Positions 37,219-62,439 of a stretch of DNA of 64,000 nucleotides are shown one piece after another. The stretch spans positions 620,001-684,000 of the forward strand of contig NZ_LUKE01000001.1 in NCBI RefSeq assembly GCF_001592735.1, written 5' to 3'. This DNA is from Bdellovibrio bacteriovorus. GTDB lineage: Bacteria; Bdellovibrionota; Bdellovibrionia; Bdellovibrionales; Bdellovibrionaceae. Position 1 is the stretch's first letter, and the number at the start of each line of letters is the position of its first letter. Made by a program: the position numbers and the translations under genes. A model generated the notes under the pieces. The model worked only from the letters and a program-made list of their open reading frames with translations. It was not told the origin of the DNA and made no database searches.

Positions 37219-37233
37219 GTCTCAAAATGAGAC
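37219..37233. promoter_or_regulatory. 15-bp inverted motif GTCTCAAAATGAGAC
   Basis: A perfect GTCTC/GAGAC inverted repeat around AAAAT, just after the murF stop. It is the most symmetric of the four copies. Confidence 0.5.
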
Positions 37234-52517: not shown

Positions 52518-52520
52518 GCC

Positions 52521-53075
52521 TCACCCTGAGACAAGAATTCCCACTCCGAATAAGACATATATCAGTGAGGTGACATAGTGAATCCATTTCATTGGAATAC
52601 GCGACGTCAGTTTTTCGCCAAAAACCACTGCCAAACCATTAGAGAAAAGCATCCCCAAAGTTGTTCCCATCGTCACCAGCAAAAGGTTGTTGTATTGAGC
52701 CGCCAAAGCCACGGTCGCAAGCTGAGTCTTATCACCAATTTCGGCAAAGAAGAAAAGAACGGTCGTTGTCCAGAAGGCCCCCCAGCGCATACTGCCTTCG
52801 TTTGATTCATCCTTATCTGGGATTAAAATCCATATGGCAAAAGCAAAGAATGTGAAGGCCAATAACCAAGTCAGGTACTGCATCGGCACAAGCTTAGAAA
52901 TCCACTCACCCGCCCATGCGGCAAGACCGTGATTTAATAGTGTCGCCACGAAAATACCTGCAATAATGTGCCAAGGTTTTTTGTATTTGGCCGCCAAGAC
53001 AAGGGCGAGAAGTTGGGTTTTGTCGCCCATTTCAGCGATAGCGACAAGAACAAATGAATTAAGGAGAATCTCCAC
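52521..53075 (-). CDS. GDT1/UPF0016 family manganese exporter
   Basis: 184 residues from a GTG at 53073-53075 with AAAGGG seven bases upstream. A longer reading frame begins inside the leader terminator and is not likely. Two symmetrical halves each carry the family motif ExGDKT (AEMGDKTQL near residue 15, AEIGDKTQL near 115), and there are six membrane segments. The family (yeast Gdt1, human TMEM165, Vibrio MneA) exports Mn2+ or moves Ca2+. The manganese riboswitch in the leader supports the Mn2+ role. Confidence 0.9.
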   Translation of the reverse strand: MEILLNSFVLVAIAEMGDKTQLLALVLAAKYKKPWHIIAGIFVATLLNHGLAAWAGEWISKLVPMQYLTWLLAFTFFAFAIWILIPDKDESNEGSMRWGAFWTTTVLFFFAEIGDKTQLATVALAAQYNNLLLVTMGTTLGMLFSNGLAVVFGEKLTSRIPMKWIHYVTSLIYVLFGVGILVSG

Positions 53076-56817: not shown

Positions 56818-56832
56818 GTCTTATTTTGAGAC
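56818..56832. promoter_or_regulatory. 15-bp inverted motif GTCTTATTTTGAGAC
   Basis: Reverse complement reads GTCTCAAAATAAGAC, one of four close copies in the window. It lies 62 bases before the PilZ start and just after folA, a natural place for control of the pilZ-murB pair. Confidence 0.5.
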
Positions 56833-58312: not shown

Positions 58313-58342
58313 ATAATTCCACTTCCTTGAGGGGGGAATTAT
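58313..58342 (+). promoter_or_regulatory. Hairpin enclosing the ribosome site and start codon of the M14 peptidase
   Basis: ATAATTCC (58313-58320) and GGAATTAT (58335-58342) are perfect eight-base arms; inside them CCT/AGG can pair. The GAGGGGGG ribosome site is in the loop and 3' arm, and the 3' arm ends inside the ATG at 58341. This would limit translation unless the helix is opened. Confidence 0.6.
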
Positions 58343-59564
58343 GAATATTCGTTATGCGTTGCCCGCTCTGTGCGTGGCACTTTTGGCGTTCACGCCGGTA
58401 GACAAAAAAGATGACACTCAATATTGGATGAAGGTTCGTGCGACAGATAAGTTCACACGCACGCAAATCGCGAACACGGGCGTGGTCATTGACAGTGTCC
58501 GTGAAGATTTCGTCGCGGCTGTAGGGAATGCCGAAGAAAAAGCTCAACTTGAAGCAATGGGATTAGTCGAAGTCAGCTTTCCTTTGACCGCTGAAATGGA
58601 CTTCCCCGCAAAAGATGCGGCTTTCCATAACTATGATGAAATGACGACCAAGCTTCGGGATTTGACCACTCGTCATTCGGGAATTTCGCGTATGCAAAGC
58701 ATCGGCAAGACCGTTGAAGGTCGCGATATTTGGAATGTTGAAATCAGCGGAAATTTAGCCCAAGCCGAAACCTTGCCAGCGGTCGTTTTCATGGGCGGTC
58801 ACCACGCACGCGAACATTTGTCCGTAGAACTGCCAATCTATTACATCGAGTATCTTTTAACCGAATACGCGAATGGCAATCCCCGTATTAAGCGCCTTGT
58901 AGATTCACGCGATATTCATATCATTCCGTTAGTGAATGCCGATGGTGCCGAATACGATATTTCAAACGGCAGCTATAAAGCGTGGAGAAAAAATCGCGCG
59001 AATGTGGGTCGCGGTTCTTACGGCGTGGATCTAAATCGCAACTATGGTTTCGGTTGGGGTGGCGCCGGCGCCAGCACAAGTCCCTCCAGCGACACGTATC
59101 GCGGACCGCAAGCTTTCAGTGAGCCAGAATCTATCGCCATTAAAAATTTCATCGAACAGCATGAAAACATCACGATCCTGCTTTCATTCCATACTTTTTC
59201 AGAGTTGATCTTGTATCCTTGGGGTCATATCTATGATTCGATCGCTGTGGCTCGCGACAAACAAGTGCATGAGACCATGGCAAAAAAGATGGCCACTTGG
59301 AACGGATACACTCCTCAACAGTCTTCAGAGCTTTACATTGCCAGTGGCGACACGACGGATTGGTCTTACGGTGAACACAAGATCATCTCTTTCACTTTCG
59401 AATTAGATCCGAAAGATGCCTGGGGAACTTCAGGCTTTTACCCGGGAGCGGACGTGATTCCGCAGGTGCAGCAAAAAAATCTTGAGCCGATTCTTTACTT
59501 AATTGAATATTCTGACAACCCTTACCGAGTCATCGACGGCGACGGTCCCATTTTAAAACCCTAA
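58341..59564 (+). CDS. Exported M14 family zinc carboxypeptidase
   Basis: 407 residues. A signal-like N-terminus (about 1-17) precedes a pro-region and an M14A catalytic domain. The zinc ligands are His155 and Glu158 (HHARE) and His284 (SFHTFSE); the general base is Glu354 (FTFELDP). The substrate segment SDTYRGPQAFSEPES and DLNRNYGFGW are typical of carboxypeptidase A/T. Trims C-terminal residues from peptides, probably in the periplasm or outside the cell, fitting digestion of prey protein. Confidence 0.92.
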   Translation: MNIRYALPALCVALLAFTPVDKKDDTQYWMKVRATDKFTRTQIANTGVVIDSVREDFVAAVGNAEEKAQLEAMGLVEVSFPLTAEMDFPAKDAAFHNYDEMTTKLRDLTTRHSGISRMQSIGKTVEGRDIWNVEISGNLAQAETLPAVVFMGGHHAREHLSVELPIYYIEYLLTEYANGNPRIKRLVDSRDIHIIPLVNADGAEYDISNGSYKAWRKNRANVGRGSYGVDLNRNYGFGWGGAGASTSPSSDTYRGPQAFSEPESIAIKNFIEQHENITILLSFHTFSELILYPWGHIYDSIAVARDKQVHETMAKKMATWNGYTPQQSSELYIASGDTTDWSYGEHKIISFTFELDPKDAWGTSGFYPGADVIPQVQQKNLEPILYLIEYSDNPYRVIDGDGPILKP

Positions 59565-59577
59565 AGTTTTTTTCACC

Positions 59578-59592
59578 GTCTCAAATTAAGAC
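59578..59592. promoter_or_regulatory. 15-bp inverted motif GTCTCAAATTAAGAC
   Basis: One of four close copies of the same element. It lies 62 bases upstream of the start of the pro-domain/subtilase operon and ahead of the hairpin at 59622. Confidence 0.5.
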
Positions 59593-59621
59593 CAACGTTA
59601 GAATTCCACACTTTTTCAACG

Positions 59622-59647
59622 CCCCTCCTCTAGAATAAGAGGAGGGG
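59622..59647 (+). promoter_or_regulatory. Ten-base hairpin burying the ribosome site of the subtilase operon
   Basis: CCCCTCCTCT (59622-59631) pairs perfectly with AGAGGAGGGG (59638-59647) around a six-base loop. The 3' arm contains the AGGAGG ribosome site, eight bases before the ATG at 59654. GC-rich pairing of this kind should strongly block initiation. It is similar in effect to the hairpin at the M14 gene. Confidence 0.7.
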
Positions 59648-59653
59648 GAAAAA

Positions 59654-60409
59654 ATGTTAAGCGCTCGTAGCATCTTGTTCGCAGCAGCGATACTCATCGG
59701 GTATTTTTACTTCTTAAGTTCAGAATACAAAGATCGCACCTTGGATTCCATGGCCAAACTTATTCAAACTCAGGATAAGTATCATCCTATTCAACCACCT
59801 CCCCAAAAAATAGAAATGGCTTCACAAGCTCCCGCAGAGCCGCCGGCTCCGGCAGGTGCTGTTCAATCTGCTCTTCTGGCAGCGGCGATCGAACAGGACA
59901 AAGCCAAAGTCGTTTTACCTCCGCAAGAAGAAGCATTAGAACACTTAAGTCCCTCGACAGAACAACTTCGTCGTTATGCGACCAACGATTTTTTTATTCA
60001 AGGACAAGGCAGTTTTCAAGTTTTACGCCTGCGCGCTATTTCAAAATATTCCTACACGGAGGAAATGGGAACAGTGATCGACCAAAAAATGAATTTGGTT
60101 TTCTTTGACCCGTCGGAATCGTCAGCGACGGCAAAACCGATGACGTTCCCGGTGGTCATGAAAAGTTCAAATGGGCAGTTAGGAATTTTAAGCGGCACCC
60201 TGTTAGTAACGATGAAAGACATTCAACAAGCAGGTCTATTGGCGCAGCGGTTTGGCTTGGCTTTAAAAGCCCAGGATAACAGCCTGGGGCTGGCTTATTT
60301 AGGCGCCCCTCGCGCCGATGAGGTGAGCGAACTGATCAACAGTCTTCGTCAAGATCCAGCCGTCAAATCTGTTGAAGCTGAAATCGTGCAGAACTGGAAA
60401 AAGAGGTAA
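59654..60409 (+). CDS. Membrane-anchored or exported protein with I9-like pro-domain segment
   Basis: 251 residues. An N-terminal hydrophobic segment (about 6-24) anchors or exports it; a Pro/Gln/Ala-rich linker follows to about 90. The C-terminal third (GAPRADEVSELINSLRQ then DPAVKSVEAEIVQ) matches the end of subtilisin pro-peptides (inhibitor I9 fold), which fold and hold the protease. The subtilase gene starts two bases after its stop and itself lacks a pro-domain. It is probably a separate chaperone-inhibitor of that protease. The I9 similarity is by eye. Confidence 0.65.
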   Translation: MLSARSILFAAAILIGYFYFLSSEYKDRTLDSMAKLIQTQDKYHPIQPPPQKIEMASQAPAEPPAPAGAVQSALLAAAIEQDKAKVVLPPQEEALEHLSPSTEQLRRYATNDFFIQGQGSFQVLRLRAISKYSYTEEMGTVIDQKMNLVFFDPSESSATAKPMTFPVVMKSSNGQLGILSGTLLVTMKDIQQAGLLAQRFGLALKAQDNSLGLAYLGAPRADEVSELINSLRQDPAVKSVEAEIVQNWKKR

Positions 60410-60411
60410 CA

Positions 60412-62439
60412 ATGAAAAGATCCGCGCTTGTGGGTCTTGCTTTGCTGCTATCCAGTTGCACGCAAAGTTTTGAAGTGGATCCTAAGGCCAATACGCCTAT
60501 CACTAAAAATCCGACGACGATCAGCGATCCGGAAGAAGAAGACGCGGGCGTTGTCGCCGACTTTACCGCTTATCAAGATGTAACCTTCAATCAAGGTCTA
60601 ACCACCACCCTGACATCCTCCCCTCAATTCACTGTGACTAACAAGCCTAGTTGGCTGACCCTTGATACTAACACCGGGACGATGTCAGGAACCCCAACCA
60701 CGACGGGCGTTACTTATGATGTCACCTTCACAGTGACAGACTCTAATAATGCGACGGAAACTTTAGGGCCTTATATCTTTAAGGTCACCGGTGATACATA
60801 CAAAAAATATCAATGGCATCTGACCAATACTGGCCAATCTGCGTTCGCCGGTCGCTCTGGAACCGCAGGGCAAGATATTCATCTGACGAATACGATTGCC
60901 AGTGGCCTTAATGGATCCGGAATTAAAATCGCGATATCTGATACCGGCATTCAAGAGGCTCATCCCGGATTAAAAAACAGTTTGATCGCCGGCGCTTCTA
61001 GAAATTATTTATTAGATTATTCTTCTACCAACTGGATCGGGGATTCAACTCCAGACACCTCTGAAGCTGACAACGCCCACGGCACGGGCGTCGCGGGCTT
61101 GGCGGCAGAGCGGGGCTGGAAAGGTTTTGGCGGAAGAGGTGTCGCCCCTCGAGCTTCTGTCGCAGGATTCATGTTCTTACCCGCGCAAGAAGATCTTTTT
61201 ATAAAAGGACGCCTCACCCAAGCCCTCATCAACCAATATCAGGGCGATTTTGATATTTTCAATTTCAGTTGGGGTGACTTGCAGTGCGAACTTACGGAAT
61301 ACGACGCCAGTTACAAATATGCTTCACAATACGGGGTTACCAATGCCCGCGCGGGCAAGGGAGCTCTCTATGTAAAAGCCGCGGGCAATGATTTTACGGG
61401 GCCACTTAGGGACTGTGTTTCTTCCGCCAGTTCTTCGGCCTACTTTTTAGGGAATTCTAACTTCAGCGAAGACAGCGGCAGTCCTTATATGATTGTTGTC
61501 GGCGCTTTAAACGCGAAGGGCACAAGTTCAAGTTACTCTTCACCGGGCGCAAATCTCTGGGTCTCTGCTCCGGGAGGCGAATTTGGTTACAGCACCTACA
61601 GCAATTCCTCCAGTGTGGCCTTAGATCCCGCTTTGCTGACGACCGATTTCGTGGGTTGCAACTTAGGACTTAAAAAGGGTTCGAACAACACTTTCGACCA
61701 AGGACAAAGTCCTAATACAAATTGTGAATACACCGCCACGATGAATGGAACCTCCGGAGCCTCCCCCATTGTTTCAGGTGCCATTGCACTAATTCTGCAA
61801 GCCAATCCCGCCTTGAGCTGGCGAGATGTAAAACACATTCTGGCTTCAACATCAGATCAAGTCGCACCCACCTCCATAAATATTCCGCACCCTTCCTCTT
61901 CCGGCGCATTGGCGGGAGTGACTTATGAACCGGGATGGACCACGAACGATGCTGGTTACCGCTTTCACAACTGGTATGGATTTGGTCGCATCAATGTCGA
62001 CGCCGCCGTGACCATGGCCAAGACGTACACTTCAAGTTTGGGAATTTTTAAACAGACCAACACTACTGACTCCAGCAGTATTGCTTGGAAATATGACTCA
62101 GGATCTATCGCCGCCACGGTGACGGGTGGGACCGCGGCGGGTACGACTCGCACCTTGAATGTGACTGAAAGTTACGTGATTGAAGGCGTGCAAGTAAAAC
62201 TCAACGCCAGCAGTTGTATTGGCAACTTGGGGGTTGAATTGACCTCGCCCAAGGGCACAAAAAGTGTGATCATGAATATCAATAGCTACCTGCAAGACAG
62301 CTCGATGAATCACACCTTCTTAACAAATATGTTCTATGGCGAAGACAGCCAAGGTACCTGGACCCTAAAACTTATTGCGGCGAAATCAGGCTGCAACACC
62401 ACGTGGAATAGTTGGCAGTTGAATATCCTTGGGCATTAA
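60412..62439 (+). CDS. Subtilisin-like S8 peptidase lipoprotein with Ig-like and P domains
   Basis: 675 residues. The signal ends in a lipobox (LALLLSSC, Cys16). Residues about 48-127 form a putative Ig-like domain (PSWLTLDTNTGTMSGTPTTT). The catalytic triad is Asp177 (ISDTGI), His223 (NAHGTGVAGL) and Ser448 (NGTSGASP). From about 555 to the end is a P/homoB domain as in kexin-type convertases (GVELTSPKGTKS, QGTWTLKL). It lies two bases after the pro-domain gene. Lipid-anchored surface protease, a good candidate for prey attack, though that role is inferred. Confidence 0.93.
   Translation: MKRSALVGLALLLSSCTQSFEVDPKANTPITKNPTTISDPEEEDAGVVADFTAYQDVTFNQGLTTTLTSSPQFTVTNKPSWLTLDTNTGTMSGTPTTTGVTYDVTFTVTDSNNATETLGPYIFKVTGDTYKKYQWHLTNTGQSAFAGRSGTAGQDIHLTNTIASGLNGSGIKIAISDTGIQEAHPGLKNSLIAGASRNYLLDYSSTNWIGDSTPDTSEADNAHGTGVAGLAAERGWKGFGGRGVAPRASVAGFMFLPAQEDLFIKGRLTQALINQYQGDFDIFNFSWGDLQCELTEYDASYKYASQYGVTNARAGKGALYVKAAGNDFTGPLRDCVSSASSSAYFLGNSNFSEDSGSPYMIVVGALNAKGTSSSYSSPGANLWVSAPGGEFGYSTYSNSSSVALDPALLTTDFVGCNLGLKKGSNNTFDQGQSPNTNCEYTATMNGTSGASPIVSGAIALILQANPALSWRDVKHILASTSDQVAPTSINIPHPSSSGALAGVTYEPGWTTNDAGYRFHNWYGFGRINVDAAVTMAKTYTSSLGIFKQTNTTDSSSIAWKYDSGSIAATVTGGTAAGTTRTLNVTESYVIEGVQVKLNASSCIGNLGVELTSPKGTKSVIMNINSYLQDSSMNHTFLTNMFYGEDSQGTWTLKLIAAKSGCNTTWNSWQLNILGH

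Follow-up and report, generated by a model that had tools for sequence, protein, structure and literature searches.

Hairpins that sequester the ribosome-binding site (RBS) silence read-through transcripts of the insertion sequences IS10 and IS50, where the genes concerned encode transposases. Among secreted proteases, the Aeromonas gene orf2 lies downstream of asp, and ORF2 acts as chaperone and temporary inhibitor of ASP (PMC5638518). The window analysed here, a stretch of 64,000 nucleotides from contig NZ_LUKE01000001.1 of Bdellovibrio bacteriovorus, carries an inverted repeat over the ribosome site of an operon which, judged from its sequence, is an ASP-ORF2-like chaperone/subtilase pair, with the chaperone role predicted (Table 1). 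The best explanation of this repeat, held tentatively and at somewhat less than an even chance, is that it is embedded in the operon's promoter and blocks the translation of read-through mRNA.

Table 1. Features of the operon, its leader and its upstream neighbour; position 1 is the first base of the window
Feature	Position	Strand	Basis
M14 carboxypeptidase gene, 89 nt before the operon	58341..59564	+	PF00246 1.1e-72
GTCTCAAATTAAGAC, one mismatch from palindromic GTCTCAnnnTGAGAC (putative operator)	59578..59592	.	Motif counts; same place in genus paralog leaders
TTCCACACTTT, promoter upstream (-35-like) block	59604..59614	+	Matches TTCCATACTTT of 13 genus paralog leaders; 15.0/17.1 bits
5' arm of the inverted repeat, CCCCTCCTCT	59622..59631	+	Sequence reading, folding
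TAGAAT, probable -10 in the hairpin loop, 16 nt after TTCCACACTTT as in paralogs	59631..59636	+	PWM, -10 sub-score
3' arm of the inverted repeat, AGAGGAGGGG, containing Shine-Dalgarno AGGAGG (59640-59645)	59638..59647	+	Sequence reading, folding
Predicted transcription start of the own promoter	59642..59645	+	Position of the -10 alone (6-9 nt after it)
251-aa membrane-anchored partner, ORF_2_N domain (ASP-chaperone-like)	59654..60409	+	PF18492 E = 6.2e-11, above curated cut-off
675-aa lipoprotein-like subtilase: He_PIG, S8 peptidase, P domain	60412..62439	+	PF00082 4.4e-42, PF01483 4.3e-14, PF05345 6.6e-9

The operon combines an S8 and P-domain protease of the ASP type with an adjacent ORF2 homolog. 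The best PDB matches of the subtilase were 3hjr (E = 8e-62) and 3wqb (E = 1.9e-61), both of an extracellular serine protease, i.e. Aeromonas ASP, and the ORF_2_N partner gave no direct sequence match to the solved ORF2 chains. A second, paralogous copy of the pair is located in the same genome (G000:C1:1727653), and the relatives within the genus mostly possess a paralogous pair; the closest relatives of the window pair are found in order-level MAGs (the nearest, L072, with 57% identity). Protease/chaperone pairs of the ASP-ORF2 type are widespread in the Bdellovibrionales, with the chaperone-like gene upstream of the protease. No intrinsic terminator was called in the gap between the carboxypeptidase gene and the operon, and two relatives (G009 and G018) present a terminator directly after the orthologous carboxypeptidase gene.

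The first-pass annotation had described a perfect 10-bp stem whose 3' arm contains AGGAGG, placed 8 nt ahead of the ATG, and direct reading of the sequence bore this out. The arms enclose the loop AGAATA (59632-59637), and an 8-nt spacer (59646-59653) separates AGGAGG from the ATG at 59654, the A of which is the end coordinate given in that annotation. By itself the stem folds at -19.4 kcal/mol (z = -3.8), and with the outer TTTTTC/GAAAAA extension at -22.3 kcal/mol (z = -4.5), with 0/200 shuffles as low in either case; folded within its 161-nt context, the hairpin presents z = -3.15. It is, then, a stable helix that pairs the Shine-Dalgarno (SD) sequence within reach of the start codon. An Rfam search of the hairpin returned sub-threshold chance matches only and no family match.

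The predicted opening of the SD at 37 °C depends on the assumed start of the transcript: it was at most 0.001 for starts at or before 59619 (SD at least 99.9% paired), 0.16 for a start at 59625, 0.59 at 59638 and 0.88 at 59643. The strong block of translation proposed in the first-pass annotation is thus physically plausible for mRNAs whose 5' end is at about 59619 or further upstream, but it would probably not extend to the operon's own mRNA, which is predicted to lack the 5' arm. The control by prey contact that the annotation gave as an example found no support in any of the results. Opening by heat, also suggested there, is contradicted in silico, as the SD was closed at 42, 50 and 60 °C. 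Hairpins that bury the SD are the core of RNA thermometers, and GC-rich stems are the core of intrinsic terminators and attenuators, yet either identity is very improbable here: leaders with both arms showed no melting when folded at 20-70 °C (at 50 °C the SD opening did not exceed 0.001, at 60 °C 0.003), and after the stem comes GAAAAAATG in place of a T run, with no terminator called.

The alignment of the genus paralog leaders (n = 13) revealed a common ungapped block, TTCCATACTTT-N16-GAAAATAG, which lies downstream of an imperfect GTCTCA...GAGAC palindrome and includes GAAAAT as -10 in 13/13 leaders, at a fixed spacing of 16 nt. With a PWM of this ungapped 35-bp promoter, positions 59604-59638 ranked fourth among 2.53 million positions, training copy included, and among the non-training sequences in 464 kb a leader-region profile matched the window leader best (E = 0.11; 59576-59622). 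The -10 sub-score of TAGAAT in the hairpin loop was tied best among 82 intergenic offsets. This promoter alignment suggests that the operon start is placed in the 3' arm, near 59643.

With a -10 in the loop, the main transcript would be made without the 5' arm. The own promoter, composed of the palindrome, the -35-like block and the -10 (Table 1), would overlap the 5' arm and the loop of the repeat, and its mRNA, starting inside the 3' arm, would form no hairpin and would be translated from a very short leader. Since no terminator was called and the carboxypeptidase gene lies so close on the same strand, a transcript reading through from that gene would carry both arms, fold the 10-bp hairpin, hide AGGAGG and stay untranslated, while the own-promoter mRNA would escape; the protease pair would in this way be tied to its own promoter. 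In favour of this promoter-embedded arrangement we count, on sequence and folding grounds, the rank of the promoter, the spacing of TAGAAT, the palindrome located upstream in both the window and the paralogs, the SD-opening figures and the lack of a called terminator. Against it, other species do not share the design, the -10 holds few bits, and an mRNA beginning near 59643 would lose part of the SD and keep little beyond GGGGGAAAAAATG.

The -10 assignment is the weaker half of the promoter match, as the TTCCAYACTTT block holds 15.0 of 17.1 bits and the -10 part adds just 2.6 bits. Because most of the bits are in that block, it could itself be the -10 region, in which case transcription would start near 59618 and the mRNA would include the whole hairpin; such a start is possible if CACACT (59607-59612) serves as -10, and a second TAGAAT is present at 59599-59604. 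The hairpin would then act in cis to repress translation of the operon's own mRNA: starting upstream of 59622, this mRNA would carry the hairpin near the 5' end of its leader, and the ribosome site would be shut until a protein or a small RNA opens it. The z-score of -4.5 and the SD opening computed for starts no later than 59619 are consistent with this repressor, which we nevertheless consider doubtful: the alignment of the promoter block puts the -10 in the loop, the helix is too stable for a thermometer and still closed at 60 °C, it has no Rfam family match, and no opener was identified. In addition, covariation of the helix across relatives, the check recommended in the first-pass annotation, was not found, nor was conservation of the helix. 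The hairpin was absent from the other examined leaders of the protease pair and was found in this genome only, though the pair occurs order-wide.

Other hairpins were observed in the leaders of related pairs. A TGAGC/GCTCA hairpin in the paralog leaders occurs in some species only, and its candidacy as a conserved structure was rejected, since the covariation score of 0.129 is near that of shuffles (0.096 +/- 0.022). The L072 leader presents a different 11-bp hairpin, which buries AAGAGG just before the ATG and overlaps a FliA-type -10, ACCGATAAG, beside the ATG. The mapped consensus of attack-phase promoters in Bdellovibrio is TTAAG-N16-CCGATA (PMC3627812), and several near-leaderless genes with a promoter of this kind 8-11 nt before the ATG were seen in the L152-L286 sample (for example in L263, L264, L268, L251 and L170). 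As FliA-type promoters recur at this distance in the genome, the L072 hairpin is probably absent from the transcript of its FliA-type promoter. We count this SD hairpin over a -10, as read from its sequence, in favour of the promoter-embedded repeat in the window.

The background set for the stems comprised 1,129 predicted gene starts, taken from heuristic start calls in 1.26 Mb of the 3.93-Mb genome. Start-region energies (-45 to +6) in this set had a mean of -8.0 (sd 3.9), and that of the window hairpin, -22.6, was tied lowest; at 10 bp its perfect stem over the SD ranked third in length, after two of 11 bp. Among the perfect stems of 10 bp or more in a 464-kb sample, it tied for the highest GC content. 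Perfect stems of at least 9 bp overlapping the RBS were roughly seven- to nine-fold commoner than predicted from dinucleotide shuffles (8 observed against about 1 expected), and for those of at least 10 bp 3 were seen against about 0.2 expected by composition. A similar excess of long perfect stems was found 15-150 nt further upstream of the starts, and a specific enrichment at the RBS was therefore rejected.

Since long stems are as common elsewhere upstream of genes, an incidental origin of the hairpin is possible, and since upstream regions are rich in stems for several reasons, the position over the SD is by itself no evidence of function. The repeat would then play no part in translation and would be either a product of chance or a palindrome around the promoter to which a protein binds. 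This is unlikely in our judgement: an excess of long perfect stems that differs little across the 0-150 nt preceding the starts, two sampled starts with still longer stems and an operon leader for which no close copy was found within the genus all agree with it, but the energy of the hairpin is among the lowest of the start regions, and composition alone would rarely give ten perfect base pairs over the strongest part of the SD.

Two other loci of this survey present long stems. At L253:1754, on the minus strand, the ATG of a predicted gene marks the exact end of an 11-bp perfect stem, AAGACCCTCTG/CAGAGGGTCTT. In the leader of a lipoprotein gene (L266:8358, at G000:C1:2088331), a 13-bp SD-burying stem with one bulge, CCGATTCCTCCTTA/TAAGGAGGATCGG, overlaps the FliA-like promoter TCAAG-N16-CCGATT. 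A genome-wide class of perfect CCTCCT/AGGAGG hairpins before the ATG was rejected, with only 2 in the genome, and across relatives the counts of such hairpins were little above the reversed-pattern control. An excess of SD hairpins at FliA-type promoters was likewise set aside as weak (5/57 with stems of at least 7 bp vs about 3% overall).

The palindrome upstream of the promoter block belongs to a wider set. In this genome GTCTCAnnnTGAGAC has 13 exact copies (control 0) and 77 with at most one mismatch (reversed control 5), and 58/60 genomes of the order contain exact copies; the sites frequently precede predicted gene starts. Besides the site in the operon leader, the window includes sites of this type at 37219-37233, 52518-52532 and 56818-56832. 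From its distribution, GTCTCAnnnTGAGAC is a probable operator of an order-wide regulator, and we found nothing on this motif in the papers searched. Seven of the 14 occurrences of CCGATA, the FliA -10, lay 42-50 nt downstream of GTCTCAnnnTGAGAC (164 site contexts, orthologous sites included), a clustering that suggests the position of an activator relative to FliA promoters; no sigma-70 -10 was seen at a set distance from the GTCTCAnnnTGAGAC sites.

If transcription starts inside the 3' arm, the promoter-embedded repeat would show by what means a secreted protease is kept silent in a predator as long as the protease's own promoter does not fire; it would also call for caution, as a strong SD hairpin in the genome may be missing from the main mRNA. 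With a start further upstream instead, the operon would have a very strongly closed leader, the opener of which would be worth finding. A broader proposal is that in these predators repeats overlapping both the promoter -10 and the SD restrict translation to own, nearly leaderless transcripts and leave read-through mute, as a general insulation device for attack-phase and surface-protease genes (the window, L072 and G000:C1:2088331); we regard this extension as quite unlikely.

Compared with the described systems, the window hairpin resembles the RNA thermometers ROSE and fourU in placing the SD inside a hairpin, but it has no imperfect or U-rich helix and does not melt at physiological temperature. 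As in the cis-repressing SD/anti-SD leader hairpins, an anti-SD arm pairs AGGAGG perfectly close to the ATG, whereas no conserved switch, ligand or opener accompanies it here and it is probably outside the main transcript. The genes themselves follow the Aeromonas sobria ASP-ORF2 arrangement, as an S8 and P-domain subtilase adjoins an ORF_2_N protein, but the gene order is reversed, with the partner upstream here and across the order Bdellovibrionales. IS10 and IS50 differ in that the repeat described here precedes a chromosomal chaperone/protease operon, with no transposase or IS ends seen, and in that read-through is something we infer. With these elements, the promoter-embedded arrangement that we prefer would share a repeat at the start of the gene and an internal promoter that starts after or within the 5' arm, so that only transcripts entering from outside would fold over the SD.
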